Positions 16,963 to 43,506 of a stretch of 64,000 nt of DNA are shown here, one piece after another. How positions within the stretch are numbered: the first letter of the stretch is position 1; each line of letters opens with the position of its first letter. The notes beneath the pieces were generated by a model. The model made no database searches and was not told the origin of the DNA. It was given only the letters and a program-made list of their open reading frames with translations. The stretch comes from Sinohyriopsis cumingii (lineage: Eukaryota; Mollusca; Bivalvia; Unionida; Unionidae). Made by a program: the position numbers and the translations under genes. The DNA lies in NCBI GenBank assembly GCA_028554795.2, contig CM068825.1:92598951-92662950 (forward strand). Reading direction: 5' to 3'.

Positions 16963-17280
16963 ACTGCTCCGGTGGCCTAGTAGTTGGAGCATCCACCACT
17001 GATGCGGGAGGTTGTGGTTCAATCCCCAGCCGAGTCATACCAAAGACTTACAAAAATGGTACTAACAGCTGCCTCGCTTGGCACTCAGCATTAAGAGATT
17101 AGTGTTAGGACTGGTTGGTCTGGTGTCAGGATAATGTGACTGGGTGGGACATCATGTTACATGTCTGCAGCATGATGCCCCAGTGCTAGACATCACTATA
17201 AACTGTCACGCTGCAGACATCATAGCGATATGACTGAAATATTGTTATAGCTACGCTAAAAGCCAAATTACACGCACATT
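16963..17280 (+). mobile_element. tRNA-derived SINE, second family
   Basis: Head with A-box-like GTGGCCTAGTAGTTGGAGC and B-box-like GTGGTTCAATCCCCAGCC; body with CATACCAAAGACTTA and CAGCTGCCTCGCTTGGCACT; tail ending ..AAGCCAAATTACACGCACA. Related copies are at 24033, 37835/37952 and 42457. Confidence 0.8.
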
Positions 17281-17793
17281 CCTCAATAGTTACTGTATGA
17301 ACATTGACTGATGATAGATTCTGTTTGCTTTACTTTTTTTTACCTTTGTCTCTTGCCAATATGTAAGACTTTTTCCTTTTAATTTTTAAGGCAGTAACAT
17401 AATTGTTTGCCACATACTGGGTGTCTCCTAATGAAAAGCAGCACAGTATTGTAAGAGCAGAAATTCTTTTGATTTGCAAATAACTACTGAAATTGAAATG
17501 ATTTTGGAAGCATGGCATAATAATCATTAAAATATGTGAACATTATTGTTGTAAACCACATGATAGCCTGCTGACACAAAGTTGTTCACTATAAGTACCC
17601 CTTTCTGTTCCTCATAAAGTTGAGTTTTGACATTTTATTTTTATAGTGATAGCCACAATATGAAATGGATATAAAATGGTATGGTCATGTGGACAGTGAG
17701 TCTTATATGATACAGTAAATAAATCCTGACATTGTGAGTGCATGGTTAGATGATTGTCTAGCTGATGAAGTGTTGTTAACTTCTGTCTTGCAG

Positions 17794-17958
17794 AAGGCCC
17801 AGAGTGGAAAGGGTAAGGCTGCAGAGAAGTGCCTGCAACAGGAGGTTGTTGCCACCCATTTGAGTGACACTGCTGCCAACATGCCATTGGAGCTGGATGC
17901 TAAAATCCAAGAACAAGGAAACAAAATCAGGGAACTTAAAGCTAGCAAAGCTCCAAAG
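17794..17958 (+). CDS. EPRS1: EPRS1 WHEP exon A (linker plus first half of a WHEP domain)
   Basis: The exon encodes 55 residues: a basic, Gly/Lys/Ala-rich linker (KAQSGKGKAAEKC) followed by helix 1 of a WHEP domain (ELDAKIQEQGNKIRELKASK, then APK). The 'QGxxxRxLKxxKA' signature is typical of WHEP repeats, which form a helix-turn-helix that binds RNA and proteins in metazoan EPRS. Helix 2 is not in this exon; it comes from an exon of type B. Acceptor is CTTGCAG, donor is GTAATT, phase 0/0. A near-identical copy A' lies at 21931-22095, with similarity running into both flanking introns (about 17285-18063 against 21420-22200). Confidence 0.95.
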
Positions 17959-18063
17959 GTAATTACCTACCCATTTATTAAGATTTATTTCACTTGTAGA
18001 GCTTTCAGAAGATTTTTGGCCTGTCTGCGACTGCTGTATGTTTTCATGTTCTACAGGCCACAA

Positions 18064-18870
18064 ATACATTACTGTACATCTGGAATACCTGCATCCATGA
18101 TCATTGTATCACATGAATATTGTACAACTGGAATATTTGTGACAAAACTGATACTACACATTTGCCATTTCTCTAACCAAACTCTGCTCAAAATATGTTA
18201 CAGTATACTTAACTTACATAGACATTGTGTTCAAATGTTAAGTTGACTGAGTCAAATATTTTATTTATTTGGAAGGACAGTTACTCTTTGAATTAAAATT
18301 GTTTAAAAATATTAATGTTACTGGTTATAGAACTGTGCAAAAAATACTGCTAGAGCCAGGGACTATTTTTTACACCCAACAAATGAAAGGTATAGTTTCT
18401 AAGTTGGAATGAGTGAAATTATTTATTCTCCTTTCTCTTTTTCCATTAAATTAAAAACTGCGTGATAAACATAATCTTAAATGGGAATGATTTAATGTTG
18501 AATTTATTTTATGAATTGAAAAATATCCAGCTTTTTCAAGCCTTTGCAGAAAGGCTTTCACAAGCTGGACATTACTGAAGCCATTTCATAAATTCAGTAT
18601 TAAATTATTGCCCATTTGAGATCTCTATTCTTGGGATGCATTTAAAGCATGAAAAATTTAATCTTTCAATGTAATGGTGTCAGTATTTGTTTTAGCATAA
18701 GTACAGTCAGTGTTTGTATACATTCAGTCAATATTAACTATATGATTAGATCATGTTTATGATGTTCATTGCACATTGAAATGATGACACTTTATTCTGT
18801 TAGAACCCTAATCAAATAGAGTGAGATAATTGAGTACACCCTTTGTTAGTCTTGGTCACTAAGACATTGA
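18064..18870. other. Intron, nothing recognised
   Basis: AT-rich intron between duplicated block A and the SINE; no exon or repeat recognised. Confidence 0.4.
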
Positions 18871-18886
18871 GTGCATTCTCAATGGG

Positions 18887-19136
18887 GGCCCCGAGTGGCT
18901 GAGTGGTCTAAAGCGCTCACCGTTCCGGATCACTGCCATCTCACCTCTGTCTGCGTGGGTTCGAGTCCAAGGCTCGGCTTGCGTGGGTACGTGGGAAAGC
19001 CTGCCAGTAGCTTCACGTGGGTTGGTGGTTCTTCCCTGGGTTTTCCAGGGTTCTTCCTCCACCTGTTATACTGGCCACCATGTATAGCCTATCTTGTGCT
19101 GAAAAATGGCGTTAAACCCTAGAACAATAACAACAA
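18887..19136 (+). mobile_element. tRNA-derived SINE, main family, full length, TSD
   Basis: This is the reference copy, 250 bp in sense orientation. The head has A box GAGTGGCTGAGTGGTCTAAA and B box GGGTTCGAGTCC, resembling a Leu/Ser-type tRNA. The body ends GAAAAATGGCGTTAAACCC and the tail is CAA-rich. It is flanked by a perfect 14-bp target duplication, GCATTCTCAATGGG (18873-18886 and 19137-19150). The conserved 3' end suggests a mollusc MetaSINE-type family (inference). Confidence 0.92.
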
Positions 19137-19149
19137 GCATTCTCAATGG

Positions 19150-19152
<3 letters not shown>

Positions 19153-19230
<78 letters not shown>
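19153..19230. repeat. (TA)n microsatellite
   Basis: A TA run of about 78 bp directly left of the region duplicated around exon B. A similar run stands 150 bp left of the B' block. Confidence 0.95.
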
Positions 19231-19233
<3 letters not shown>

Positions 19234-19511
19234 GAATAATATTTTTAAATTGTGTTGTACAGTAACTGTTAGAGCTTAGAAATTCCACGTATTCTTTTGT
19301 AATTTTACATGATCCTTGATGAGTGCAATTTGAAGCAGATTCAGTATCATATACAGGGTAGGATGAGTAATATTGATGCAGGACAAGTAGTCAACCATAT
19401 ATTTTCAAGCACTGACAATATAATTGTTTCCCAATCAATTACCCAATTGGTATGGACAAGTGAATTGGCTATATAGTGAATACATATTACTGGTAATACA
19501 ATGAATTTCAG

Positions 19512-19742
19512 GAGCAGATTGATCAAGCCGTGAAGCTTTTGCTGCAACTGAAAGCTGAATATAAAGCTGTAACAGGTAGTGATTGGAAGCCATCATCTCA
19601 AACAGGTGCCACTAATATTCAAGTAACAGCAACATCCCCTAGCAGTATGGCAGATACTACCATAAAAGCAACAGATTTAAAGGCTAAAGTTGAAATGCAG
19701 GAGGACAGAGTACAGCAGCTCAAAAGCACAGCAGCACCCAAG
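19512..19742 (+). CDS. EPRS1: EPRS1 WHEP exon B (second half of one WHEP, first half of the next)
   Basis: The exon encodes 77 residues. It opens with WHEP helix 2 (EQIDQAVKLLLQLKAEYKAV), runs through a Ser/Thr/Gln-rich spacer, and closes with helix 1 of a following WHEP (DLKAKVEMQEDRVQQLKSTA). The usual Gly of the QG turn reads Glu here (MQED), a departure from the WHEP consensus. Acceptor is TTTCAG, donor is GTGGGA, phase 0/0. An exon with this half-and-half structure can be repeated in tandem, each copy adding one complete WHEP. The paralogous copy B' is at 38822-39052. Confidence 0.94.
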
Positions 19743-20207
19743 GTGGGAAATCACTTCTCTGTATATTCATATTTGGGCTGAATTCATTCAGGAAAATATT
19801 TTTTTCAAGGAAATTCTGAGAGATTGAGGTGATCCTAATTAGTATTTGTAAACAGAGGTGAAGAAGTGACAGTCTTCGAGCTCATCCAGGCTAAAGTCAG
19901 AGTGAACTTGTGATATCGCCCCAGAGTTTTTTGTGCTTATTTGTTGTTTTTTTACATGGCTGTTCATCAACACTTCCTTGTTGACACTCAGCTGTCTTTC
20001 TTTTTTTCTGAAAAGATGGCCATTGCCACTATATTAATAGACTTTTCTTAGCCGTTTATGGGCCTTTCTTTGGCAATATAGTCACATTTAGGTGAAAAAC
20101 CTCTTAAACACTTATATCTTAAGCAACACACATGCATTTGCTAGTATTTAAAAACTTGCACTTTTTAATTTTGATTTTTTTTATCAGATGATGAAACCCT
20201 TTTTATT

Positions 20208-20455
20208 AATGAAAGATGACTAGATCAGTGTGTGCGTTCGTGTGTGGTATGCCTGACAGCAATAATGAAAGATGACTAGATCAGTGTGTGGTATGCCTGA
20301 CAGCATTAATGAAAGATGACTAGATCAGCGTGTGTGTTTGTGTGTGGTATGCCCGACAGCATTAATGAAAGATGATTAGATAAGTTTGTGTGGTATGCCC
20401 GACAGCATTAATGAAAGATGACTAGATCATTGTGTGTGGTATGCCCGACAACATT
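20208..20455 (+). repeat. Minisatellite with AATGAAAGATGACTAGATCA units
   Basis: Four to five copies of a 55-75 bp unit: AATGAAAGATGACTAGATCA, a GT-rich stretch of variable length, then GGTATGCCTGACAGCATT. The GT run explains the unit-length variation. Confidence 0.85.
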
Positions 20456-21380
20456 AAGATTTTCATTAGCTTTGCTCTTTTGCTTTTTTATATTTTTGAA
20501 TTTCCATTTATTTCAGGGAATGATGTATATGTATATCTGTCTCCTATAGCATCTTGAACGTATGATAATTTGTGTGCAGATTGTTTTTATAGCACTCATC
20601 CATTTATGTCACAAGAAATAAAAAGCCCAGTACAACTTTTCTGCTAAGACAGGACATAAGATTTTCTATACTTTGTGTATAAAAACCTTCAAGATATTGA
20701 TTAACAATGTCTATAACTCTTGTACATTTAAAGCTAAGGCAAGTTTGCAGGCATATGAACAAAATCACACAAGTATCTTTACTTCTGGCTTGTTTTAATC
20801 ATCAGTACTTGAAACAAACAAGAAAAGGATATTAATAAAACAACAGGAAATTGATGCAGTTATGCCTTGCAAGATAACTCTGATAACATCAGCCCTAACT
20901 CTATTCTCAGATTCTCCATCATCTGATGTTCATCAATTAGCACAAGTTTGTTACCATTAATCATCTTAAACTACATGGAGGATTGCCATGAAACTTTGCA
21001 CACATTCATCCAAAGGTCTGGTGGGTTTTAAATCATTGTAGATTATGAGTGTTCTTATAATACTTCATAGGCCTGCTTATTGTTAAGTTATGTAAACCAT
21101 ATCAGGACCACATGGATATCTTGCTATTGGTCTTAGTTTTAATTTTTTTTATGAATGAAAAATGAATTTACAGTACCAGTACTTGAGTTTTTTTTAAAAA
21201 CTTTTAATCTGGTCATACTCTGCCTTCTTATTATCTTTTATAGCTACTTTAGTTTGTAGTAACTGAAAAGTTAAAGGTTTAATACTTTACAACCACAAAA
21301 ATGGCCTTTGAAATAACAGAAAAAAATAGGTCACTCATTATGAAGGTAGATAGTAATTTTGGCAGCAGCCATTTGACAAT
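20456..21380. other. Intron with a family X fragment
   Basis: Mostly unremarkable. About 20.85-21.05 kb carries family X landmarks (GCACAAGTTTGTTA, GGATTGCCATGAAACTTT, CATTCATCC). No exon. Confidence 0.4.
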
Positions 21381-21930
21381 GAGAAGGCTGTTAACAGTTG
21401 TTGCCTTGTGTTTCATTCCTGCACAGTTACTATATGAACATTAAGACTGGTGACATTCTGTTTGGTGTATGAATTCTGTAGTTTTGTCTCTTGCCAGTAT
21501 ATGATATGTTGGCGTTTAATTTTTAAGGCAGTAACATGATCGTTTTCCACATACTGGGTGTCTCCTAATGAAAAGCAACACAGTATTGTCAGAGCAGAAA
21601 TTCTTCTGATTTGCAAATAACTACTGTAATTGAAACGATTTTGGAAGCATGGCATAATAATCATTAAAATAGGTGAACATCATTATTGTAAACCACATGA
21701 TAGCCTGATGACACACAGTTGTTTAGTAAAAGTACCCCTTTCCATTCCTCATAAAGTTGAGTTTTGGAATTTTATTTTTATAGTGATAGCCACAGTAAGA
21801 ACAAATGGATAAATGGCACTGTCATGTAGACAGTGAGTCTTATATGATACAGTAAATAAAACTTGACATTATGGGTGTATGGTTAGCTGTTTGGCTAGCT
21901 GATGAAGTGTTGTTAACTTCTGTCTTGCAG

Positions 21931-22095
21931 AAGGCCCAGAGTGGAAAGGGTAAGGCTGCAGAGAAGTGCCTGCAACAGGAGGTTGTTGCCACCCATTTGA
22001 GTGCCACTGCTACCCACATGCCATTGGAGCTGGATGCTAAAATCCAAGAACAAGGAAACAGAGTCAGGGATCTTAAAGCTAGCAAAGCTACAAAG
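21931..22095 (+). CDS. EPRS1: EPRS1 WHEP exon A' (duplicate of exon A)
   Basis: This is a second 55-codon copy of exon A with the same splice sites (CTTGCAG acceptor, GTAATT donor), the same phases and seven amino-acid differences, including QGNRVRDLK for QGNKIRELK. The reading frame is open and the WHEP helix-1 signature is intact. If spliced directly after exon B, it would interrupt a WHEP domain: B ends with helix 1 and needs helix 2, but A' begins with the basic linker and another helix 1. It is therefore either an alternative first WHEP exon, a skipped exon, or part of a linker with one half-WHEP. Its use in mRNA cannot be decided from DNA alone. Confidence 0.75.
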
Positions 22096-22199
22096 GTAAT
22101 TACCTGCCCATTTATTAAGATTTATTTCATTTGTAGAGCTTTCAGAAGACTTTTGGCTTTTCTGTGACTGCTGTCTGCTTTCATGTTGTGCTGCAGGCT

Positions 22200-23450
22200 A
22201 CCTAACAATGTCAAATCCATTCGTTTGCTTAATGATTAGCTCACCTGTCTCATGTGTCATCCATTCTCCATCTGTTTGACCTTTAGTTGTTATTACATGA
22301 GTGCATTCTTTGAGCACATGTTTATCAAACTTGGTATATGGTTTCTGGGTTAAATCATTAGGATCAGTGACAAGCTCAGTCTTTTGTGGACTAGTGACCC
22401 AGTCTAGCATCTGACTGTCTGAGCTTTTTGACACAACAAGAGTTATTAGCTCACCTGTAGAAAGTAGAGGAGAGCTTTTGTATAATCATCAGCTTTGGTC
22501 TTGGTGTTGACAGATATGGTTTTATCTAATTACATTGACAGCTTAAGGGCACATTTAAAAATCACTATCTGGCCTGCACCTTGGAGGGAGTTTGCACCTG
22601 CCTGTTTTATATACATGTACTATTGTTGTGCATTATTGGTTAAGTTTTTGCCTTTAGCTTAGGTATTCTGCACACTGTATACATACTGTTTTACTGGGAA
22701 TGATTAAACTTGATAAGAAGCTGAATCTTGAAAAGTACTATATCCTCGTCATAAAAGTAGGTCACTTTTGATGCACATTTCACACTTCACTAATAGATTA
22801 AATTATGTTCTCAGGTTAATTTCTCAAACAATTTTCATGCTGGAATGCACAAACTAAATGATTGTTATACATCACTGTTAGTACCAAACCTTTTCAACAA
22901 AAATGTCACTGACCTAGGTTTTTATATTTTGTTGGTTTAGGTTAAGTTTTGCATTTAACTTGTGACAAAATAGGTTTTTATATATCTGCCATAAATTGCA
23001 GCTTTTTATGTTATGATGTTGTCCATCTGACCATCCATCTAAAATTTTGTTTGACATAATAACTAGATTTCTTTGCCATATACAGTTACCAAACTTCATG
23101 GATGGCTTGCACTTGGAGTTAGGAAGAACCATATTGATTTGGGCTTAAAGGTCAGTGATTAAAAAATGGTTTCATCACAGTAATATTAGTTTCATATCAC
23201 ATTACCTTTACCCATATTTGTGGAGGACTTTAAAAAGCCTAGATATTTTGGGGTCAAAAGGTCAAAGGTCAAGGCCACTGAGTGAAAGAAGGAAAATGAT
23301 TTGAGCACAATAACATTAGTTCTGCTTCACATTGTTAGACCATACTTTGTGAATAGCTTGTACTTGGGATAAGGAAGAAACCTGTTAAAGTTGAAGTCAT
23401 GGTCAGAGGTATAACAGGGTACCACAAAAATTGTGTACCACTGTATTTCT
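22200..23450. repeat. Interspersed repeat, family Y-like modules
   Basis: TTAGCTCACCTGT occurs at 22237 and 22448. Further right, GGTCAAAGGTCAAGGCCACTGAGTG and GAATAGCTTGTACTTGGGAT match the modules at 7.9-8.56 kb. Non-coding. Confidence 0.45.
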
Positions 23451-24032
23451 GAATATACTGCAAAAATGCCATGGTACACTGCAGTTCTTTTATGGACCAA
23501 AAATTCAGTGTTCTGGAGCAGGGGCCTAATACTATTTTGTTTAATTTCTGTCTGTCAGTAGCTGAAGAAAATACCTTGTACTGGTTTAAAGCAAAATAAC
23601 ACGATATTATATCCATGATATTATGTGGAAAAAATATTAATTGAGATAAAAGAAAAGACAATTAAATGGTTAGAATCTTATAGAAAATGAATTTGCTACA
23701 TGTTAACTATTGTATAAGTTGTAATCTAAAAATTGTAACAAACGGCTGATGATTATATTTAACACTGTAGCTGATACTGTGAAAGATACCTTGCTGATAT
23801 TAGAGAACCTATTGATAAAAAGAGGAAGAGTTTGATACTGAAGCCCACAGTTTTACTTGCTACTCTGTTGATATCATAGATAGGAAATCTTTGAGTGGGA
23901 TGCCAACACCTGGGCCAGTAAACATGAAACTTAACAAATGAAAAAAATTAATGGCTTTGGGAAACTAGATAAAGTTCAGACAGAAAACAACCGCAAATCA
24001 CAAAGTTGTTGGATGATTTGCAGTATTGCAAA

Positions 24033-24319
24033 CGACTGTGCCAGTGAGCCAAGTGGTCTGAGCATCTTCCTTTGATGTGGAAGGTCATGGGTTTGAACCC
24101 TAGCCAAGTCATACTAAAGACTTATAAAAACAGTACTAGCAGCTGCCTCCCTTGGTGCTCAGAATTAAGAGGTTAGTGTTAGGACTGGCCAACCTGGTGT
24201 CAGGATAATATGACAGGGTGGTACATGATGTTAAATGTCTGCAGTATGAACTCGATAAACTGTCACACTTTAGACACAGTAGCAGTTTTTAGCAACGTTA
24301 AAAACCCAAATCACACACA
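24033..24319 (+). mobile_element. tRNA-derived SINE, second family, TSD
   Basis: This 287-bp copy has head AGTGAGCCAAGTGGTCTGAG and B box GGGTTTGAACCC, followed by the family body (CATACTAAAGACTTATAAAA, GTGTCAGGATAATATGAC) and a CACACA tail. A perfect 12-bp target duplication, CAGTATTGCAAA, flanks it (24021-24032 and 24320-24331), fixing the boundaries of this family. Confidence 0.9.
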
Positions 24320-24740
24320 CAGTATTGCAAAGGAATATATGCACTTAACATATTCATATATGCTAGTAAATAACTAAAACATGAAGTGGTTTGGGTGTGT
24401 GTGTGTGTTTCTTTCAAGCTGAAGTTTTTCAACATGATAGATTTGGTCCTGATGATATCTTTCTCTACAGTCCATTAGGCTAACGAGTTGGCATAATATG
24501 TGATGCATGTCAAAACAAGCGATTAAACGATCATAAATATAATTATATTTGTAATATTTACAGTAATTTTTGACATACAACCATTTGGTACAAAAAAGAA
24601 AATACTTTTAAATTTGTTTTCTTACAATTGTTCATGAATAAAACACACTATTATTATACTTGGTTATAACAAAATTACTCAGGAATTTCCAGACATTCCT
24701 TACTGATGGAAACTGTTGATGTACTGGTATAATGAAAAAG

Positions 24741-24986
24741 CTGTTGTAGAATTTAACACCATTTTTCAGCACAAGATAGGCTTTACATGGCAGCCAGTAT
24801 CATTGGTAGAGGAAGAACCTGGGAAAACCCCGGGAAGAACTACCAACCCACGAGAAGCTAATGGCAAGCTCTCTCACATACCCACATTGGCCAAGCCCGA
24901 GATTCGAACTCTTGCAGACATAGGTGAGATGGCAGTTATCCATAACGGTGAGTGCTTTAGACCACTCAGCCACTCAGGTCCCCTAG
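24741..24986 (-). mobile_element. tRNA-derived SINE, main family, TSD
   Basis: Full-length antisense copy. An 8-bp direct repeat TGAAAAAG flanks it (24733-24740 and 24987-24994). It is more diverged than the others (ACACCATTTTTCAGCACAAG at the tail end) and is among the older insertions. Confidence 0.85.
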
Positions 24987-25215
24987 TGAAAAAGTACTGT
25001 AGTACATACCCCTGAAGAAAAAATACTGTGGTGAACTGATATGCTGATAATACCATGCACATCTAGTCAGAGGTCAGGCTCATTTTGACTGAAATCTGTC
25101 AAATGGTTTTTGCACAAAAGCGATTTAAAAACCAAAAGCAAAAACATTTTAAAAAAGAGGGAGAAGATAAAAACTTCTCTGTACAAACTGAATATCAAAG
25201 TTAAAATATTATGTT

Positions 25216-25465
25216 GTTGTTGTTGTTGTAGGGTTTAACGCCATTTTTCAGCACATGATAGGCTATACATGGCGGCCAGTATTAATGGTGGAGGAAGAAC
25301 CTGGGAAAACCCCGGAAAGAACCACCGACCCACGAGAAGCTACTGGCAAGCTTTCTCACATACCCACATTGGCTGAATCCGAGACTCGAACCCACGCAGA
25401 CAGAGGTGAGATGGCAGTGATCCGTAAAGGACAGCGCTTTAGACCACTCGGCCACTCGGGGCCCC
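25216..25465 (-). mobile_element. tRNA-derived SINE, main family, TSD
   Basis: Full-length 250-bp antisense copy with a (GTT)n tail and a perfect 13-bp target duplication AAAATATTATGTT (25203-25215 and 25466-25478). The B box reads GGGTTCGAGTC on the minus strand. Confidence 0.92.
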
Positions 25466-25800
25466 AAAATATTATGTTTGCATTGATGGGATAATTGTTA
25501 TTTTTGGAATATTTTATCTAAATTACATTCAAATATGTTCAAGTGAGTAATTGTATGTCTATAATTTTCAAGCACATGGTAAATCCATATCCAAAAAAGC
25601 AAAGTTCTTAGATTTTGCTAAAACAAGGGCAGCTTGTGAGTATAAGTATAATAATTAACACTATTTACCATGCAGCATTAACTTGAATATAAAAGATGGC
25701 TACACTGATTTTAGAATGGTAATTTGAGATATAAAACCAATTAACCATAAAGTTTTGAAGAGGTCATAAAATTGATTCTCCAGTTTCATTAAAACATTAA

Positions 25801-26401
25801 CCCCTGGAGCTTTTCGTCATTTTCGCCTGAAAATTGAGTAGCAGGCACATTTTGAAAGCTATTTCTGAATAGACTCGAAAACACCAATTCCCTGGTCATC
25901 TTTCAATAACATATTGCCTAGTTGCATTAGAAACATCGTTTTTCATAGGCTATTTTACTCGCACATGAGCAGAAGTGTAAAAGTTGGAGGGTTTTTTGGT
26001 TGTTTTTTTTTGCTAAACGGAGCCATTATTTTTGTATGGAGACCACTCTTTATTACAAATGCCCATCTTATCCTACTTTTTGCAAAGGCTCATCTGTCTG
26101 TTTGCAGTTCATACCAGTTTGCCTTAGATCTGAAACCAAAAAGTCTAAAATCCAGACACAAAATCGGATTCCGACCACGGGCGAATTTTGGGTAAAAAAA
26201 AATTCGTGCCCAAAATAGGAGTTTTTTTAATCTGTATTTTGTAGTGCAACTGGATATTCCAGATTATTTGGTATCATTGTAGGGCTTCATCTGTCTACCT
26301 TTCTATAATACCACCCACTTTAGTGAATCTTGCATGACCATAATGCTACAGAGCTCGGCAGTAGGCTACTACCTCCAGCCCCGTTAAGTCGTCGCTAGGG
26401 G
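25801..26401. mobile_element. piggyBac-like non-autonomous element (TTAA-flanked)
   Basis: A 601-bp segment begins CCCCTGGAG and ends CTAGGGG, with TTAA immediately outside both ends (25797-25800 and 26402-26405). TTAA target sites and CCC...GGG termini are the hallmarks of the piggyBac superfamily. Only about seven terminal bases are inverted. No DDD transposase is encoded; the open frame at 25914 has no recognised domain. This is the best reading, but short TIRs leave some doubt. Confidence 0.6.
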
Positions 26402-26458
26402 TTAATGTGTTAAGTCATTTTACGATTGAATGTATGATCGCAAATGGTTTGCCACCTG

Positions 26459-26643
26459 AGGGCTGTTCCATTTAGACATACTTGGTACCCAGAGAAGGCA
26501 GTTTAAAAATAAGTATATGCCAGAGTACTTTAATTTCATTCAGTTCATATTAACATGACAAGAAAATTCAAAATTGCATCTTTAGTACCCCACATAAAAA
26601 GTGCCTTCCCTGTGTCTCAGGTATGTTTTACTCAGACAGCCCT
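26459..26643. mobile_element. MITE with about 40-bp imperfect TIRs
   Basis: The ends AGGGCTGTTCCATTTAGACA and, as reverse complement of the right end, AGGGCTGTCTGAGTAAAACA continue into similar CATAC..GAGA..AGGGAAGGCA sequence. It is 185 bp and non-coding. A related right end occurs at about 51320-51365. No target duplication is obvious. Confidence 0.6.
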
Positions 26644-26859
26644 GATACAATAATCAAGAAAATAAAAGTGTTAGTAGTCCTGAGACCAATAAATTATTAG
26701 TGTGTGATTTATAATTCCAATAGATTTTACTGTATTTGGTGCCACTTTCCCTAAGGTTTGTTCCTTAACCATTTAGGAAAAGTTGATATAGAGTTTTAAA
26801 ACATAGTGAAATATAGGTTATGAGGAATTTGATTTGATAAGTGCAGAATTTGTAAATAA

Positions 26860-29469
26860 GACTTCTACTTAACAGTCTTTTGGAAGAAAAGTATTTCAGC
26901 CTAAAACAAGCCCTTCTAAAACTCAAACTGGCACAACTTCTAAACATCAAACTTCGGAAAAGCTTGATTCAAGATCCTTGTCTCTTCCTATGTGTACCTA
27001 TTGCAAGAAAAAGGACACGTTATTTCTGACTGCTACAAATTGAAAAATAGGCATTAGCATCAAGACAGACATATTCCAAATGCTCTTATTTCTAAGAGGT
27101 CAAGGTCATGGTCATATATTGAAAGCAATACATTTGTTGGGTCTAATAAACCCCAGTCTGATTTGATTATGGAGAATTATGAACCATTCATATCAAAGGG
27201 TTCTATATCACTCTTGGGTGATTCGGCCAATCCTATCCGTATTAAAATTATAAGGGACACAGGAGCTTCTCAGAGTCTTTTATTGTCGGGTACTTTGCCT
27301 TTTACTGAGAATTCTTCTTCTAATGAGAGTGTTCTTATTCAGGGAGTAGAGCGCGGCTTTATTAATGCTCCTCTCCATTGTGTAAATTTGTCACAAACTT
27401 AGTTTCAGGACCCGTGACAGTCGGAATGGTCTCTGTTTTACCCATTGAGGGCATTCATTTATTACTTGGCAATGACTTAGCTGGAGACAAGGTTGTGGTT
27501 AATCCACTTGTAACTGACAAGCCTTGCTTGGATCAGAAAGTCGATCCAATTGAAAAAGAATTCCCTGATGTATTTACAGCATGTGCAGTTACCAGAGCTA
27601 TGGCAAAGAAAGCACTTGAGAATGATGTTGATCAGGAAAGTATTCCTTTAGCTGACACAAGTAATGGTCAGGCTTTTGATGATGTCACTTTCACTCCTTA
27701 TTTGGATCAATCTTTTAACGACTCATTCTCTTTATTCTAATCAGGGTGATAAATGACAATCACTTGTCGTCGAACAGGAAAAAGATCCTGAGATCTCCTG
27801 CTTGTTTCAGAAGGCCATTAGTGAAACTGAAGCTAATGAAGTTCCTGTATGTTATTTCATTAAAAATGAAATTCTTATGAGAAAATGGAGACCTCCAGAG
27901 GTACCTGCTGATGACGAATGGTCAGTGAACTATCAAATTGTAGTTCCAAAACCTTACAGACAGGAAATACTTAGTCTGGCCCATGAAACTCCATTGGCTG
28001 GTCATTTAGGGATCAATAAAACTTATCACAAGATCTTAACTCACTTCTATTGGCCAAAAATCAAGAGTGATGTTGGTAAATACTGTAGATCTTGTCATAC
28101 CTGTCAAATGGTAGGAAAACCAAATCAGAAAATTCCCAGGGCTCATCTACAACCTATTCCTGCCTTTGACGAACCATTCAGTAGAATTATGGTAGATTGT
28201 GTTGGTCCCTTACCTAAGACCAAGTCAGGTAACCAATACCTGTTGACCATTATTGTGCGTCAACAAGGTTTCCAGAGGCAATTCCCTTGAGGAATATAAA
28301 CTCTAAAATAATAGCAAAAGCTGTGATAAAGTCTTTTACTCAATTTGGCCTTTCTAACTATCCGATCGGATCAAGGGTCAAATTTTAGGTCTGGAACTTT
28401 CCAGCCTATATTGCATGAATCTGGCATTCAGTGATTCAAGTCAGAAGTGAAAGTTATGGTTTGATAGAACTAAAATAGGGAGAACTTTTGAGTTTTGTAG
28501 TAGTGGAGTTCTGTCTCTCTTCCTCATTCATCACATTTTTCTTCAGTTTAGATATTATGGCCCTTAAAAGATTAAGAAGAAAATGAATGAGTTAAATTAT
28601 AATATTAGTGCTCCTGGGATCTAAATAAATTATAGGAGTACCATTATATTGAATGAGATAGCCAAGTTAAACATGCAATAAATTTAGTTGTACCTGTCCC
28701 ACTCAGTGAGGATTTAAGTGAAGGAATATCATCAGATTCTACTGACATTGGAGTGACAAATCTTTGGAATTCTGAAATTATGAAAGATCTGGACCAGAAA
28801 CTTTCACATTTGCAAGAGCAAGAAAGAAATGAACTTAAACAGTTATTCTTTGAATATGAGTACTTATTTCCAGATGTTTTTACAAGGACAAACAAAATTT
28901 TCCATGACGTTGAAATTGTAAATTCCAAACCTGTCCAACAACACCCATACAGGATAAACCCTCTCAAACAGGAATACTTGAAAAAAGAAATTCAATATTT
29001 GCTGGAGAATGATTTTATAGAGCCCAGTAAAAGTGACTGGACTTCACCATGCATACTTGTTCCAAAACCAGATAAAACTCCATATGGTACTGATTATAGG
29101 AAGGTGAATAGTGTGACAAAAACAGATCCATTTCCATTACCAAGAATTAATGACTGTATTGATAAGGTCTTCGATTATTGTGTTTAATGACCACAACCCC
29201 CTTACTTTCATCAGCAAGATGAAGAAAAAATCTGAGTCTACTAAGGTGCAGTTTGTTGTTACAGGAATATAATCTTGACATCAGGCACATCAAAGGAAAA
29301 GATAATTTAATAGCAGATGCACTTTCCCGTGTTTAGAAATGTATTATTTCATGTACACTGTGTATAATTCATAAGAGTTCTCTTTTTTTTCTTTAACCTC
29401 ATGTATAATTAATCTATGGTAAAAAGAAAGCTTTATTATATAAATCTTTCTTTTTCTTTATGGGGGAAG
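26860..29469 (+). mobile_element. Ty3/gypsy-type relic with PR-IN-RT-RH order (Gmr1-like)
   Basis: This is a 5'-truncated LTR retrotransposon. In order it carries: a gag CCHC zinc knuckle (CTYC, then GHVISDC after a 1-bp deletion) at about 26990-27045; an aspartic protease with DTGASQS at 27256; an integrase HHCC finger (AHETPLAGH ... CRSCHTC) at 27950-28115; integrase core remnants with VDCVGPLP and SDQGSNF; reverse transcriptase fingers (SDWTSPCILVPKPDKTPYG, DYRKVN) at 28753-29187; and an RNase H end (DHNPLTF, KGKDNLIADALSR) at 29190-29335. The RT palm with YxDD is deleted, and stops break every domain junction. A polypurine tract GGGGGAAG (29462-29469) precedes the 3' LTR. Integrase upstream of RT is unlike ordinary gypsy elements and matches the Gmr1 clade. 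Confidence 0.85.
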
Positions 29470-30470
29470 TGTTACGTATATCCAATTTAATTTATATTTA
29501 TTTTAATTGTATTGTTTGTCAGCTTTAAAAATTTTCATTCTGTTACATGCTATTATAATATAATCTTGCTTATGCGATTTGGAAATTTTTTCCAGAAAAT
29601 AGTTTGACCTTGACTGTTCATTTGTAAACACTTAAAGCTGACCTAGTTCCCAACCTTAATTCAAAATTATTTACACCACATGAACAAGTTCTTTATTTAT
29701 TTTTATTTTTTGTGGGAATAATAGGGGTGAGATCAAGGCTGTATTGGATACATGACTAGTCTTGTAAATAGTTTTTGTGTAGTAAACAGCTTTTTTATTT
29801 TATTCTTAGAATAAAATGATTTATTTTTGTCAGGGCCATGTTGAGAGTATGCGATGTAAACATGATCACATGAGCCTCATATGGGTACATATTCTGCATC
29901 ACAAAATTACTGTATAACCATTGTTTTAGAGAAATAATCTCAGTCTGGGCTTAAAGCACTTAATGTCAAGTTGTTTTCTTCTGTTGTTACCAGTTTTTGT
30001 GTTATATGTTAATTTTTATTAAAATTATTTGGATTCTAAAAGATTAATTCGTTTCTCTGGAAATATTTGAGTGCTGATACAGAATTCTTGAACAAAGACA
30101 TTTCTTAAAAATTTTACTCGGATTTCCAACACAGGAGTGTAGTTTCTTGTGTTTCTACAAGGAACTGTAGACAACATCACTGTACAAGATACAGCATATG
30201 TCATCGCCTTCCATCTTGGATTCTTTGTCTGGACTCAAACTTGAATTCGTTAGAACATATCATTACTAGGACTTCTCAAATTTAATTTGTGGATTATTCT
30301 TGGATTATTTTTGGATTTGATTCTTAAAACCGTAAGTTCTTATTTTTTCATTTTTACAGAATTTGTCCAGGGAAATAAATTATTTGTTAAATTTTTCAAA
30401 GCTTGTTGTTTTCAATCTTTCATGTGTTACTGTTTATTCGAGCCTAAACACATAGCATAAGACTGTAACG
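29470..30470 (+). mobile_element. 3' LTR of the Gmr1-like element
   Basis: It begins TGTTACGTATATCC directly after the polypurine tract and ends ..GACTGTAACG, so the terminal inverted repeat TGTTAC/GTAAC(A) is nearly intact. The identity as an LTR is supported by a second copy in reverse orientation at 36198-37134. The 5' LTR and most of gag are missing. Confidence 0.82.
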
Positions 30471-30479
30471 AAAAGGTAA

Positions 30480-31765
30480 AATTACAGATCCAGTCTAGTA
30501 ATACATGTTAAGGATATAAATAGAATGAGGGAAAGTTCCTACAACTAAGAGTTTACTTACTTTTGATGGGGTATTTCAAAATAAAATTCTGAGACTGCTG
30601 TGGAGGCCATTTTTAGTACAGCAGAATCATCCCTGAGTAATTAAACTTTGCAAGTCAATAAATGGTAACATCTGAAAATATATAACTCCTCACAAACATG
30701 AACAAGCACCAAAAGGTATAAAACATCTTAATCCTCACTGTCATTGTATTACAAACAATCCAAGTTGTATTAAACCCAAACAAGTTTCTTATAATAGTGG
30801 TGATACATGTAAGGTAAGTGATTATAATATTTATATGTGCTATTTTTTTCTGTATTATTTATTTAACTTTTGTCCATGATTGTAGATTGTAAGGGTCCAT
30901 TGTAAAACAACATATTGAATAGCTACTTTTTCCATGATTGTATATTGTACTTGATAATATAAACATGTTGACATGGAGACCTTTTCCTGTCTTCTATGTA
31001 AGTTATAAATAAGTTGTTTACTGATATTTGAGTTCAACATCCATACTTTGAATGTTCTGGTAGAGAACTTGTTTGCTAATTTGATGGGAAAATTACTCAC
31101 ATCTTGGCCCTCACATTGTGTCTCAGGTTTTTGTATAAAGGTTGTCATCAACAGAATTATTTATTCCTATTTTAACATATCTCTAGTGGAATCAATTTTA
31201 GTTGTGTTCAGTTATAATTTCAGAGAATGTATTTAAACTATTCATTGGAATTACAAAGTGCTCATTGTTTGGACTAAAACACTATTTTAGTATTATTGTG
31301 AATTCATTCAAGGACATTCTAGATTATATAATTGTGATACATCACGAGTTTTGGCACATCCACTCACCAAATACTACTGGCACATCAGCGCAGTCAGTAC
31401 TATACTTGTCGACTTATGATAGAACTTTTAATTTTTTACCAGGGTTTAGATGTGTCAGATTTAAATATGACCCATTTTTGACGTTTGGAAATTTCAGCTT
31501 GTGTGTCTGTTTGATGCACATAGATTTGGGATGGAGGATGAATCTTTATTACACTTGATTCACCTCCACCTTAGTTTCTTACTAAGAGTATGGTGTCCAT
31601 AACAAATTTACTGCAGGAGGCACTGATCAACATCTGCTCAACAACGGTTTCAACTTGACGGACAATAATATTGCACCAATATATGAACTGGGCAGAGCTA
31701 ACAGTTCACTAATTCAATCAGTCTTAGTTGTAACTGAGTTAGGCTGGATTGTTTTGAGATTAGGT
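30480..31765. other. Intron, nothing recognised
   Basis: AT-rich, with several short random open frames. No recognised repeat family, exon or RNA gene. Confidence 0.4.
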
Positions 31766-31779
31766 TGGAATTTTATGAT

Positions 31780-31901
31780 GTGGTTGTTGTTGTTTTAGGG
31801 TTTAACGCCATTTTTCAGCACACGATAGGCTATACATGGTGGCCAATATTAATGGTGGAGGAAGAACCCGGAAAAACCCTGGAAAGAACCGACCCACGAG
31901 A
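31780..31901 (-). mobile_element. 5'-truncated SINE, main family, TSD
   Basis: Only the 3' 122 bp of the main SINE is present; the tRNA-like head is missing. A perfect 13-bp target duplication GGAATTTTATGAT (31767-31779 and 31902-31914) shows that it inserted in truncated form, as expected for LINE-driven reverse transcription that aborted. Confidence 0.9.
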
Positions 31902-31914
31902 GGAATTTTATGAT

Positions 31915-33280
31915 AGAGGAAGAGGAAACAATTATGACATGAATGGATTGCCTTTTCATCAAATATCAGCATTGGAATAATTGAACATCAAATTTTAATC
32001 AACTGGTTAAAACTGGAGCATATGGTGGCTCGCAAAACTGATTGTTTTATTGTCAATTTGCTTCATTTGGCAGAATGTTTAAAACTTCAGAATCATTTTA
32101 TGACTTCACTGGATTCATTTCTGATAAAATATCTGCATTTGTTTGATTGTGCTTTAAATTGTAATCATTTAGACAAAACAGGAATATATGGCTTCTCTCA
32201 GAGCCAGTTTTCAGTGTAGGGTTGTATTATTGGGTTTAGTTGCTTCAATCAGAAATATATATATATTGCATATGTTCTTTTTTGATTGTCTTCAAATTTT
32301 TGAGCATTAAGAAGTTATACAATGTATTTTTGTTAAAAACATTGTGTATGAAAAAAGTTTGACCCACTATTAGCATTGAATACAGCATGGACAATCCATT
32401 AACTTAAAAGTAAAAAAATGTTGAATCCAAATTTATATGAAGGTTTCAAATGCAAATAGAGACCGCATATTACAAATTATAACATCTTGTATGAAAATTT
32501 AATTAACAGTTCTCAAGAGTTTCATTAATATTTTAAAAAAAACTACTGCTGTAACTTATGGCATAGTATTTAAACAGTTGGGTAGTAAATAAATACACTG
32601 CTTTTCATTACAAAACAATTTTCCGTAACGGAAACTGCTTAGGCTTTGTATTGTGTTCAGAAAAGTAATCACCAGTTTTTTAATTCTAAACTCTTGCATT
32701 TTTAAAAGTTTGTATGTAAATAAATTCCTCAAATTGTTTGAGAATCCTTTTATATAAAAAAGGATATCATAAAATGTTTCATCTTGTATGCTTTTTTATA
32801 CTGAAAAATAATTACCTTCAGATCAGTAAGGTTCAGATAAGGTTAGCATTCATTATGTTCCACATGTAAAGTTAGCCTTGTGTGGTTGTCAATGTTTATC
32901 ACTTGAAAACCAAGTTCTAGCTTCAGTAAAATTTATAGATCAATCCAAAGACAGTACCCACTAGCTGAGAAATAAAATTTGTTTCATTTGTACATGATGC
33001 AATTAAAAAAATATTAAGTATTCTGCAGTTGAAGATAAAACTGCAGATGGATTTTGTGTAAATTATTAGTTTTCACATAGAGATACTTGTATATTTCAGA
33101 TTTTGTTAGCAGTAGTAATTGCTTATACATGTCTACTAAAAAATCTGTAAGACATCAATCTTTCAACAATTTTCACATGAGAACAAGTTGGTGTTTTTTT
33201 TTAAATATAATATTAATATTTTGTATAACCAAAGTCCATTCAGTTCTGATTATTGAATGTTCTGTACATTTGCTGATATC
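31915..33280. other. Intron, nothing recognised
   Basis: Strongly AT-rich with many TTTAAA and poly-A stretches; no exon or repeat recognised. A poly-A run lies just beyond, at 33366-33382. Confidence 0.4.
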
Positions 33281-33284
33281 AAGG

Positions 33285-34400
33285 AACTTCCGGACGAAGA
33301 TTGTCGATCGCTATGGACTATTTTAATGTAAGACAAGTACTAAACTGACCAAGAGAAAGAAAGAGAAAAAAAAAAAAAAAACAAAGAGCACGTTGAGTCC
33401 AATCGTTTAAATATAGGGTAGTATGAATTTGTGTAATATGCGTAGCTCTCATTGTGACATCACAGCGCGCCACATTCAATCCGACTGTAATGCATCACAC
33501 CTTTAGGTTGAGCGCGTCCAAGTATGTCCACGTACTGTAACATAGATTGTTGCCGTGTGTACTAATTGGGTCGTGTAAATAACGATCTTTCAAAGGAATA
33601 ATGATGTATTAGGATCCAAATGGAGTGAATAATTGCCATTTGAATGTATGTAGAATCAAATTCGAAATAATTACACACATTTTTGAAATATATTGGTATT
33701 GAACGCCTACTTGACCTGAATGACTTTTACAGTTTAGTTTTTTTATAACTGAAGGATAAAAAAATTAAAGCTCTTGTCCCAGTTTTGCAAAGTCATTTAC
33801 ATGGTGTTACCACGCTGATGTTGTGGAGTTTACTGTCGGTATTTGTAATGAAGGAGGTCTACATAGTATTTGAATGCCTCAAAGCGCTTCATCATCGCTG
33901 GGAATAAACTGCTGGCTTTGTGCGAGTTTAGACCTAGAGCCAATCAAATCGTCAGGCGTGGGTCAGACGAGGTCATCTACCTATACATGTTTCTCCACAC
34001 ACGTGTACAAATGCAATGCTAATATTTATACTGGCATGTGGATGATGCAACTAAATGCAATTGAACTCCACAGGTATTCGACTGATAATTAAAGCAGTTC
34101 CTAAAAGTTATACAATTTACGTGAATACATTTCGAGGTCGATTTACCAGCGAACGTAGTCGTATAGTAAACACGAGACAGGAAACGAAAAGCATTCAGAA
34201 TACGGCCGCAAATCGGATATTGTAACCTGCTACCTGTACATATTGAAACTGTCTTTGTTCTTAAGGGAGTAGTAAAACACATAGCTCGGTTAGTTTACTT
34301 ACATTGTTTCACAAACTGAGCACATTAAGGATAATCGAACGACTTGGATCATTACACCATGTATTTTGGCCTTAACTTAAGGCTTCCAAAACTACTCGTG
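33285..34400. other. CpG-rich pocket inside the A'-B' intron
   Basis: I count about 40 CpG dinucleotides in this 1.1 kb, several times the density of the surrounding intron, with clusters at 33460-33550 (CAGCGCGCC, GAGCGCGTCC) and 34130-34220 (GCGAACGTAGTCG, ACGGCCGCAAATCGG). No long open frame, splice chain or RNA gene was recognised on either strand. It may be a regulatory or promoter-like stretch, or foreign sequence that has not lost its CpGs. Both readings are inference. Confidence 0.4.
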
Positions 34401-34525
34401 GAATGCAAGTAAAAACTAGTACAGATATTTATTAAACACCATAGGCTTATCATAATGTATTTTAGTCCAACTAAGTAGTGATTACTGATATTACAGGTGA
34501 GTAACCTGATCTTTGTTGTAATATG

Positions 34526-34526
<1 letters not shown>

Positions 34527-34593
<67 letters not shown>
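34527..34593. repeat. (TA)n microsatellite
   Basis: TA run of about 67 bp with inverted borders GATTATATA ... TATAATC. Confidence 0.95.
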
Positions 34594-34595
<2 letters not shown>

Positions 34596-34599
34596 CAGT

Positions 34600-35440
34600 C
34601 ATTGGGAGAATTGGCAAAGTAGGCAGTGGTTACATCTGTTTAGGAATAGGCAGTTCAGTCAGTTTTGGAACAAGATACATTAACATTTATTGTAGGATGC
34701 TTTGAAATTATTTTTAGTGGCATATTTTTTTATTAGAACATATAACAAGATGGCACAAAGCTGTGGACCATCAGATCTTGTTAATGCATAATTTCTTTGC
34801 ACTTTTGACATTTAGAAACCTAGGTATTTATAAACAATAGTTTTGTTCAAATGTTACTTTAGAATCTTACCTGAGCCATTAGTTGATCAGGGCAGTTGTT
34901 TTTACATGAAAATGATATATCCAGGTAATGTACAAAATTGCCACCAGCTTGCAAATCCAGTGCCAGTCAGTTTCACTGCAGAGTAGTGCAAAAAATGAGT
35001 TGGCAGTCTGTCGAGCCAGTTTTATTACAAGAAATAGTAAAAACCATGTGAAATATAATTAATAGTGAACTGTCTTGAAATAGTTACTGGTTCTGTCAGC
35101 TTGCTTGAGTTTTTTTGTAAGTTTCACACACGGCATCCATGCAATCAGTTACAGTTTTTGATGTATAAACTCTAATCAGTCTTACCTAACAACTCATACA
35201 TTTTGGAATTTTTTCTTAATGAGAATCCTTATATGTACCATACTCGAGGATTAATGTATCTTTATACCAAGGATGTAAACCGCAAAAGTATTGAGCTGAA
35301 AAATTGAACTTTATTGTGTACTATTCACAACATTACACAATAGGTCTGCTTGCCCTGCATTAAAATGGACATCATTGGAAAAACTTCTGTTAACAATGGC
35401 TGTATATATGAGTATCATGTTTCAGAGCCCATTTTCCAAT
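34600..35440. other. Intron, nothing recognised
   Basis: AT-rich intron without a recognised element. Family X landmarks start at about 35450. Confidence 0.4.
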
Positions 35441-35449
35441 ATCACGTCT

Positions 35450-35760
35450 AGTTATATCTCGTCATGTTTAGTTCTACTGGTCATGACCAGAAATGCTTTT
35501 GTGATAACCTGTAGTCCCATTGTACATCCATACATTAGCACAAGTTTGTTATTATTACTTCTGCTAAACTACTTTGAAGAAACTTTACACCAAGGTCTAC
35601 TTTGTCCTAAATGTAAATGATAACGCTTGGACATTGAATATGGCTACCACAATTGCCATCGTTTAATTCTTGTTATTGCAGCTTGTCCAGAACAGATACT
35701 GAACGTTTTTAGCCTTCATGTGATGTCTAGTTGGTCCTAAATGAAAGCAGTGTATATCTT
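35450..35760 (+). repeat. Interspersed repeat family X
   Basis: Contains CACAAGTTTGTTATTATTAC, GAAGAAACTTTACACCAAGG and GATGTCTAGTTGGTCCTAAA in family order. Confidence 0.55.
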
Positions 35761-36197
35761 GTCATGTACTGAAAAATAGTCCTAAACACCACAAAAGCAA
35801 ATAAAACTAATGAAAATTATGACCAATCATACATCCTATATCGTTGCTATCATAAATTCTCATTACATCATCAGAATATCAAAGACAGTTTCAACACTCG
35901 ACAGATAAAGAAAAGAATGATGTTGTCATTGAATACCAGGAGATTAATTCTTTCAGCCAGTAAAGTCTTACCCATTTGCAGGGACTCTTGGAAAAATTAT
36001 TGATTGTAGGAGGGGTGTTAATGTAGTTATCTGAGGTAGACCAGGATCTACTAAGGTATATCATTGTCACACACACCCCTGACTGGGGAGTCAGGGTCAC
36101 ACCAAATGAAAGCATCACTCTCTTACCAGTTTCAGTTTTCTTGATTGTAACTTGAAAGCTCCAGCAGCTACTTTAATGAAACATAGCTCAAATATAC

Positions 36198-37134
36198 TGT
36201 TACATGTTTAGGCTCGAATAAACAGTAACACAGAAAGAGTGACAACAACAAGCTTTTTAAAATTTAACAAATAATTTATTTTCCTGGAAGATATTCTGTA
36301 AAAATGAAAAAGGAATCAAATACAAATATAATCTGAGAATAATCCACGAATTATTTTGCAAAAGTCCTAGTAACAAATGTTCTGATAATTTCCAGTTCGA
36401 GTCCTGATAGAAACTCCAAGATGATGATGATGATATATGCTGTTGTCAGTACTGTGCTTATTTACAGTTCCTTGTAGAAATACAAATAATGGCACTCAGG
36501 TGTTGGAAATCCAGATTAAATTTGTAAGCAATATCTTTCGAAAATTTCTGTGTGAGCACTCCTCAAAATATTTCCAGAGAATAAAGAGTTAATCCTTTTG
36601 AAATCCAACTAATCAGAAGAAAATTACAGCCCAAGATCTGGCTACAACAAACTGACTTGTCATCAGTGTAAAAAAGCCCCAAACAGAGATCTCTCTCTAA
36701 AACAAAGGTTATACTATATTGTAATATAAGACACAGTTTCGAAATTCGTCCAAGTTGTGAAATCAGAAGGGGGATCACATGATCATGTTTATATCACGTA
36801 CACAGAATATGGTCTTGAATAGACCAATAATTTTCTCTAAAATAAAAAAATTAAAAAAACAGTTGTTAACATATTAAACAATGTAGGCCCATCATAACCT
36901 TGGAAACAACCAATCATTTTAAAATAGAACTTTGTTTACTAATTTTGAATCAAGGTCAGCATCCAGGCCAACACCTGGTGTTTATGAAAAGAATGATTCA
37001 GGTCAACCAATTTTCTGGAAAAATATATCTAGTGAATAAATTTACATTATAATAGCATATAATAGAATAAAAAAATAAAAACTGACAAACAATTAAATTA
37101 AAATAAATTTGAATTAAGTCAGATATACGTAACA
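36198..37134 (-). mobile_element. Solo or isolated LTR, inverse orientation
   Basis: The minus strand reads TGTTACGTATATCTGAC ... GAGCCTAAACATGTAACA, the same LTR family as 29470-30470, with intact TGTTAC/GTAACA ends. No polypurine tract or pol sequence adjoins it, so it looks like a solo LTR. The 5-bp flanks (TATAC and AAACA) do not match, so recombination or decay is also possible. Confidence 0.78.
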
Positions 37135-37830
37135 AAACAGCATGACAAGAATCAGTGTCGCCTACAAGTCATGCTTCCTATCTGAGCGGTCAGTGTCAAT
37201 GTTGTGGGATATTTAACCCGTGTGTAGTCACTGTTTGTCACTTATTGATATTTTTACATAAGTTGACAATTCAGTTCTCACAATACACACACACACACAC
37301 ACACACAAGCATCTTTTTGCATGCAACTTTGACAGGACATTTATATTTTGTTTTGTATCATGTATTGAAGTGCAGGACATATTTTGCTCTACACCAAGTT
37401 ACATACCATTTTGGTTAGCCATTTTGGAAATGTTGAAAATAGGCCTTTTGTTGTATAACTGGCTCATCCAATTTGGAGAAAAAGTAAAGGATTTCCACTT
37501 GATTGTTATGGTTACCATGCTAATGAAACTAATTAGATGCACAATTTTGGTAAAGTATATCTTTATGAATTATTTCTACCTAATATTCGTAAATTTGGCT
37601 CTGCAGTTTTTTTTTTAGAAGTAAAGCATGACATATGGTTGACTGGTGGATGAATGGACACAAGGATGGAGGCAGATTCTATGATCTCGTGTGTTCATGT
37701 ATCAAACAGATTTAGATAAGCAGAATATTCACACAATTTACATACATAAATGGACTATAAATGCCTGATCAATTTTTGTATGCATTTTTTAGGACTAATG
37801 TTTCAAATTCTGAGATATGGCCAGATGTCA
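37135..37830. other. Intron with a short (CA)n run
   Basis: (CA)n at 37286-37307; otherwise nothing recognised. Confidence 0.4.
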
Positions 37831-37834
37831 AAAC

Positions 37835-37951
37835 AACAGAGCAATGTGGCTGGGTGGGATATGATCCTACATGTCTATGGCATGATTCCCCAATGCTAGA
37901 CATAACTATAAGCTGTCACACTGCAGACATAGCAATATGACTAAAATTGTT
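37835..37951 (+). mobile_element. 3' part of a second-family SINE
   Basis: Body sequence only (GGCTGGGTGGGATATGATCC ... CACTGCAGACATAGCAATAT), lacking the head and directly abutting the full copy at 37952 as a head-to-tail pair. Confidence 0.75.
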
Positions 37952-38266
37952 GACTGCACCGGTGGCAGAGTGGTTAGAGCATCCATCTCTGATGCGATAG
38001 GTCGCAGGTTTAAACCCCAGCCGAGTCATACCAAAGACTTATAAAAATGGTACTAACAGCTGCCTCACTAGGCGCTCAGCATTAAGAGGTTAGTTTTAGG
38101 ACTGGTCGACCTGGGGTCAGGATACTGTGACTGGGTGGGACATGTCTGAGGCATGAGGTCCCAGTACTAGACATCACTATAAACTGCCACACTGCAGACA
38201 TCATAGCAATGTATGGCTGAAAAACTGTTAAAGCTACATTAAAAATACAAATCACACACACACACA
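37952..38266 (+). mobile_element. tRNA-derived SINE, second family, full copy
   Basis: Head CCGGTGGCAGAGTGGTTAGA (A-box-like) and GCAGGTTTAAACCCCAGCC (B-box-like), full body, (CA)n tail. A short further tail-like segment (AGCTACATTAAAAATCTAAA) follows to about 38300. Confidence 0.82.
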
Positions 38267-38340
38267 CTAAAATTTTTAAAGCTACATTAAAAATCTAAAT
38301 CAAACATTGCTTAATAAACCATTTAAAGCCTTCTCCTATG

Positions 38341-38342
<2 letters not shown>

Positions 38343-38402
<60 letters not shown>
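38343..38402. repeat. (TA)n microsatellite
   Basis: TA run of about 60 bp, 150 bp left of the region homologous to exon B's upstream intron. Confidence 0.95.
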
Positions 38403-38406
<4 letters not shown>

Positions 38407-38821
38407 CAGGACTTCTTATTTTACACATGGTTACTATAATTAAAAAGACTGTATCCCCATTGGGATATGTCCAAAAAAGACCCGACCTACTTTGGTAACT
38501 TACCCTCCAACTTGAAATCTAATGGAAGGCCTTTACATTCACACACTTCTGGAATAATGTTTCAAATTGTGTTGTGTGATCAGAGCTTGGAAATTGTACT
38601 TATCCTTTTATAATTACTTTTTCATGTCCCTGAATGAGTGGCATTTGAAGCAGATTCAGGATCATGTACAATATAGGACGAGTCAGAATGATGCAGGAAA
38701 AGTAGGCAGCACTATATTTTCAAGCACTGCCTGTCTTCACCCATTAATTACCCAGTTGTTAAAATAAATTACATGTAGCTATATAGTGAATACATCTAAC
38801 TTGTAATGCAATGAATTTCAG

Positions 38822-39052
38822 GACCAGATTGATCAAGCTGTGAAACTTTTATTGCAACTGAAGGCTGAATATAAAGCTGTGACAGGTACAGAGTGGAAGC
38901 CATCATCTCAAACAGGTGCCACTAATAGTCAAGTAACAGCAACACCCTCTAGCAGTATGGCAGATACTACAACAAAAGCAGCAGACTTAAAGTCTAAAGT
39001 TGATATACAGGGTGACAGAGTACGACAGCTCAAAAGTTCAGCAGCATCCAAG
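38822..39052 (+). CDS. EPRS1: EPRS1 WHEP exon B' (duplicate of exon B)
   Basis: This is a 77-codon paralogue of exon B with identical length, phases (0/0) and splice sites (TTTCAG / GTGGGA). It begins with helix 2 (DQIDQAVKLLLQLKAEYKAV) and ends with helix 1 (VDIQGDRVRQLKSSAASK). Here the QGDRVRQLK core has the canonical QG turn that copy B lacks. About 15 of 77 residues differ from B. It joins well to either A-type exon upstream and to exon C downstream. Intron similarity to B extends from about 19231/38549 through about 20000/39300. The intron between A' and B' has grown to 16.7 kb by retroelement and other insertions, against 1.55 kb between A and B. Confidence 0.92.
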
Positions 39053-39309
39053 GTGGGAATTCACTTCTCTGTATATTCTTAGTCTGGGCAAAATTCATTC
39101 AGGAAAATATTTTCTTTCAAGGAAATTCAGGTAGATCCAGGTGATTCCATTTTGTGTTCATAAACACTGGTGAAGAAACATGTGTTTGTGCCGATCTGGC
39201 TACAGATCATGTGTACTTGCCCAGTCTTTTGTGATGAACTCTTGGTATGTTGTCCATTTATCAACACTTGCTGGTTGGCACTTGACATTATTTCTTTACT
39301 TGTGAACAG

Positions 39310-43470: not shown

Positions 43471-43506
43471 ATTGTTATAGGATTCCTTTCTTACAATATA
43501 TGAATT

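Follow-up and report, generated by a model that had tools for sequence, protein, structure and literature searches.

The stretch of Sinohyriopsis cumingii DNA analysed here (64,000 nucleotides, hereafter the window) carries a pair of homologous blocks within one EPRS gene, arranged A-B-A'-B'. The duplicated segment, exon A plus exon B, is out of register with the WHEP repeat, because the introns of this gene cut WHEP domains in half. We think it probable that a single tandem duplication of A and B, followed by separation of the second pair and by gene conversion, gave rise to this out-of-register array. The event is of an ordinary kind; its register is unusual. Animals need EPRS but vary in how many WHEPs it carries, and a duplication whose introns can still be read shows one route by which that number can change. 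It suggests that what is gained follows the borders of exons rather than those of domains.

The duplicated exons and their gene

Exon A (17794–17958, 165 nt) encodes the linker from GluRS to WHEP1 and the first half of a WHEP; exon B (19512–19742, 231 nt) encodes the second half of WHEP1, a linker and the first half of the next WHEP. Their copies, A' (21931–22095, 165 nt) and B' (38822–39052, 231 nt), lie on the same, forward strand, as do all the exons described below. A' differs from A at 7 of 165 nucleotides and 7 of 55 residues, and B' from B at 27 of 231 nucleotides and 15 of 77 residues. All four are bordered by AG and GT, are in phase 0 at both ends and are free of stop codons, and the six bases on either side match within each pair (TTGCAG and GTAATT for A and A'; TTTCAG and GTGGGA for B and B'). 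The homology, introns included, is far above chance: the forward-strand block around A (17277–18061) aligns within the window with that around A' (21414–22201) at 88.8% identity (E printed as 0.0), and the block around B (19232–20015) with that around B' (38550–39309) at 77.9% (E 1.9e-173). An earlier note on this DNA had claimed that A and B recur as A' and B' with equal lengths, phases and splice sites, with homologous introns and with these same counts of residue differences; all of this stands, its coordinates being exact to the base. Homology of exon and flanking intron together with equal phase, the marks of tandem exon duplication, are thus found in both pairs, and among ten exons compared with their flanks A and B are the only ones with a second copy in the window (E <= 0.01).

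The note had also judged the copies too diverged to be alleles, and their introns agree, with differences at 64 of 612 positions (10.5%) between A and A' and at 94 of 512 (18.4%) between B and B' (Fisher p 2e-4; this and our other Fisher tests assume independent sites). Differences of 10–18% make it very improbable that the second pair is an assembly artefact, formed when two haplotypes were joined end to end. Two further observations speak against such a join: eight of the ten exons tested are single in the window, and the assembly yields no further copy of the exons (E <= 0.001).

That the pairs lie inside one EPRS gene, as the note had it, is borne out by the exons around them. In tblastn searches the C-terminal part of GluRS is represented by E1 (6565–6723; 60% identity over 57 columns) and E2 (8767–8879; 82% over 33 columns), and the end of that part by E3 (10995–11106; match at 10936–11085, 52%, E 1.6e-8), each with AG and GT borders. 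Downstream of B' lie exon C (41657–41735), a Pfam WHEP-TRS match that supplies the second half of the last WHEP and has no second copy in the window at E <= 0.01; exon D (44825–44948), the lysine-rich linker to ProRS; and the first ProRS exon (49585–49846), 86% identical to human ProRS over 90 residues. The GluRS and ProRS matches were obtained with a human EPRS query; in the PDB, the first ProRS exon matches bifunctional glutamate/proline--tRNA ligase (E ~4e-51). All ten exons, E1 to E3, A, B, A', B', C, D and the first ProRS exon, can be joined in frame, so that GluRS, WHEP linker and ProRS fall within a single gene and frame. Three more GluRS matches occur in the flanking 10-kb stretch on one side and three ProRS matches in that on the other; the in-frame joining covers the C-terminal GluRS exons through to the first ProRS exon. 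Human EPRS, which has three WHEPs, shares with this locus the order GluRS, WHEPs, lysine-rich linker, ProRS; what differs here is that the GluRS-proximal linker exon has been copied together with a WHEP exon.

A genome-wide protein search with spliced A-B-C returned five matches, all of them exons of this locus (E <= 0.001), and with the same query and threshold no retrocopy was found that might have revealed how the gene is naturally spliced. A Pfam WHEP search of the assembly gave ten matches, four of them exons A, B, B' and C. The six others (C9:73770580, C9:88803909, C9:56171762, C12:116745678, C18:47222495 and C6:106359979) lie off EPRS, and the spliced EPRS query recovered none of them. 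Two of the C9 matches lie on opposite strands but are identical in score and in length of frame. The two off-locus frames that were read look MetRS-like.

Halved domains and the register of the duplication

Introns split each WHEP of this gene after its first half, and splicing A to B, B to C, B' to C, and so on, rebuilds whole domains. By Pfam WHEP-TRS (PF00458; curated cut-off 32.5 bits) all five spliced whole-domain combinations belong to the family: A+B scores 88.2 bits, A'+B' 86.0, B+B' 68.8, B'+C 68.6 and B+C 60.4. The start of exon A shows a weak alignment (29%, E 0.013) to the segment that links GluRS to WHEP1 in the human protein, and A joins the last GluRS exon in frame; judged on this, A is not a repeat exon, and it carries the GluRS-proximal linker. 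The earlier note's "two WHEP exons" is therefore apt for B and only in part for A, whose first ~33 codons are, by our division, linker.

A motif scan of both strands placed a first half in each of the four duplicated exons and a second half in each of B, B' and C, although such a scan could miss a degenerate half; a third, short motif also matched at 38431, with a stop inside, and at 60950, with no other WHEP feature, and both places were disregarded. If a repeat unit had been duplicated, first halves would equal second halves; here they number four and three. The gene would have started out with two WHEPs (A+B and B+C), and three have been possible since the duplication. On these numbers a third WHEP is the most that can be gained, and if all four exons are used the first half in B is left an orphan. 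The note's claim that the duplication changes WHEP number thus survives in part: a rise from two to three is possible, four is not, and A+B is not a repeat unit. We infer that the number in the protein has changed.

In the form that uses all four exons, B's orphan half would be followed directly by the GluRS-proximal linker, there present for the second time. The protein across the junction of B and A' matches no Pfam family at E <= 0.001. In the full all-four-exon protein Pfam marks four WHEP stretches at E <= 1; hence the orphan half is still half-domain-like.

Lineage-specific duplication of WHEPs in protostome EPRS, one mollusc included, is described in the available portion of Ray and Fox (2014; PMC4072531), where WHEP number varies through linker duplications and ants have 2 to 5. 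The likeness is that number varies by lineage-specific duplication within the linker; the difference is that the comparison there, as far as that portion goes, is of protein domains, whereas at this locus the duplication can be read in the DNA itself and does not keep step with the domains. The tandem exon duplicates presented in the available parts of PMC9741552 and PMC9013439 are likewise homologous, adjacent and of equal phase; here the unit is two exons long, and any exclusive splicing of it would be hypothetical. The available parts of the literature on WHEP and EPRS evolution, molluscs and exon duplication yielded no report of this locus.

Which exons are joined

Six splice combinations that keep A, B, A' and B' in genomic order were translated from E1 to the first ProRS exon, and every one of them is open. 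Among the mature transcripts that might result, A-B-A'-B'-C, which would encode three complete WHEPs plus the orphan first half from B, is our leading candidate, if a tentative one. It is ranked first chiefly on two residues. The first half in B reads QEDRVQQLK, whereas the other three follow QGxx(V/I)RxLK; the G and R lost in B alone are present in the three distinct solved WHEPs with which we compared them. Such losses would be foreseen for a half that lacks a partner, which is the position of B's first half in A-B-A'-B'-C, and are less expected if the transcript is A-B-B'-C or A-B-C. The degraded half clearly predicts what the mature mRNA should contain. Counting against the all-four-exon form are the score of B+C as a WHEP and the loss of a proline from A' and B': it is kept in A and B, and A' (KATK) and B' (AASK) each lack it, although one of the three solved WHEPs has S at that position.

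Comparison of the copies bears on the same choice. B and B' both look as if they are used. Nonsynonymous differences between them (16 in 178.5 sites) are scarcer than intron differences (94 in 512; Fisher p 0.003) and scarcer than synonymous ones (p 0.03), and synonymous change in the exon does not differ from that in the introns (p 0.71). In the part of the exon that encodes the second half of a WHEP there are 3.5 nonsynonymous differences in 65.7 sites and 6.5 synonymous in 18.3; in the part that encodes a first half, 8.5 in 56.5 and 3.5 in 15.5. Indels between B and B' number zero, against 6.7–9.5 expected from intron rates, and were one copy neutral the chance of finding none would be p 0.009–0.035, these ranges reflecting the dependence of the expectations on gap costs.

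A' could be neutral. The probability of seeing no indels between A and A' under neutrality is 0.34–0.39, so that the test lacks power there. All seven A/A' differences change a residue and none is synonymous; compared with the introns, nonsynonymous change gives p 0.10 and synonymous change p 0.04. With A and B pooled, nonsynonymous change is not significantly lower than synonymous (p 0.14). Positive selection on A and A' was considered from the seven nonsynonymous differences against none synonymous, and is unproven (Fisher p 0.35).

The apparent constraint on B and B', which A' need not share, would suit a gene that skips A'. The working transcript would then be A-B-B'-C, with B' an in-register gain and A' a passenger that may decay. 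Such a transcript would have three complete WHEPs and no orphan, its B+B' chimaera passes as a WHEP at 68.8 bits, and an intron of 16.7 kb follows A'. We nonetheless regard it as rather unlikely: A' retains an open frame and the splice-site cores of A, and the chimaera would need the first half from B, the one that has lost the G and R kept by the other three.

Alternative pairs are somewhat less likely still. The gene would then always make two WHEPs, in differing sequence versions, as A-B-C, A'-B'-C or A-B'-C. The phase 0 borders permit this and these combinations are open; A-B-C scores 135.7 bits and A'-B'-C 141.8, and splice forms of Nematostella EPRS with one and two WHEPs appear in the available portion of PMC4072531. 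An exclusive choice between sets of two exons, however, requires coordinated skipping.

A fourth idea, which we rate about as doubtful as the skipping of A', is that, by using or skipping A', the once two-WHEP gene makes alternative linkers, with two WHEPs, with three, or with three plus an orphan half and a further linker of the GluRS type, the first half in B already decaying after losing its partner. If so, a domain repeat would have been caught in the middle of a change in number, by way of a broken intermediate.

History of the locus and the interval between A' and B'

On our preferred history, one tandem duplication within EPRS would have copied exon A, the A-B intron and exon B together, in a segment that we infer to have been ~2.7 to 4.1 kb long. 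Mobile elements and other sequence would then have separated A' from B', and A and A' would later have been homogenised by gene conversion. The lower divergence of the A/A' introns, together with a run of 109 identical bp that spans the 3' splice site of A (17758–17866, forward strand), suggests conversion at A. Column shuffles matched this run once in 20000 trials; a 34-bp identical B/B' run was matched in 128 of 5000. Uneven constraint may account in part for the 109-bp run, and selection on coding sequence may have had a share in both runs.

The same difference in intron divergence would also follow if there had been two events, B being duplicated first and A copied later to a place between B and B', a history compatible with any of the transcripts above. 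We consider this improbable. Tandem copying of A alone gives A-A'-B, whereas A-B-A'-B' takes one event, and the 109-bp run is indicative of conversion. The order of the exons fits a single tandem event, and conversion at A is on that account the likelier explanation.

The earlier note ascribed the spread of A' and B' to elements that landed between them, which is borne out in part. Repeats do lie there: an old dispersed repeat at ~22603–23191, with copies at 68–80% identity (at least 46 further matches, with 40 of 1636 candidates scored); short dispersed-repeat copies at 24073–24249, 24742–24998, 25214–25465, 31783–31901, 37843–37947 and 37990–38262; and a fragment of an H2C2 integrase domain within 27757–28287. 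What fails to appear is any convincing remnant of the A-B intron beyond 18061. With 18062–18884 as query against 22202–38549 the best blastn match has an E of 0.039, which is unconvincing, and against 22202–24000 the score of 55 falls below the maximum of 62 among 20 shuffles. Each B block has a (TA)n tract on its left side. Tracts of this kind occur four times in the window, twice in the interval from A' to B', and they give little support to a shared A-B intron. The 147 bp at 38403–38549, just before the second B block, have no other copy in the window. In the first copy of the A-B intron there is an imperfect inverted repeat (18474–18622, 75% over 150 bp), possibly a small transposon.

The right boundary of the duplication was not found in a comparison of 20016–21413 with 39310–41640. 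The score of 86 exceeds all 20 shuffles (maximum 66), and there are weak collinear matches, 20942–21033 to 40159–40248 (75%) and 21166–21201 to 40739–40775 (78%). We give the match no weight either way: its best part overlaps a stretch that also matches at 42354 and 51469, and it could therefore be a dispersed repeat as readily as a remnant of the duplication.

Other introns of the gene hold repeats of their own. A fragment of the C-terminal dimerisation domain of a hAT transposase lies between exons C and D (43170–43508). Five copies of a 41-bp tandem repeat (48935–49140) immediately precede the first ProRS exon, and a second array of 41-bp period is found at 7070–7236. The intron before exon A contains ~3.5 kb of minisatellite arrays (11860–15341) with units of 48–51 bp; the two unit lengths are divisible by three, and long open frames run on both strands.
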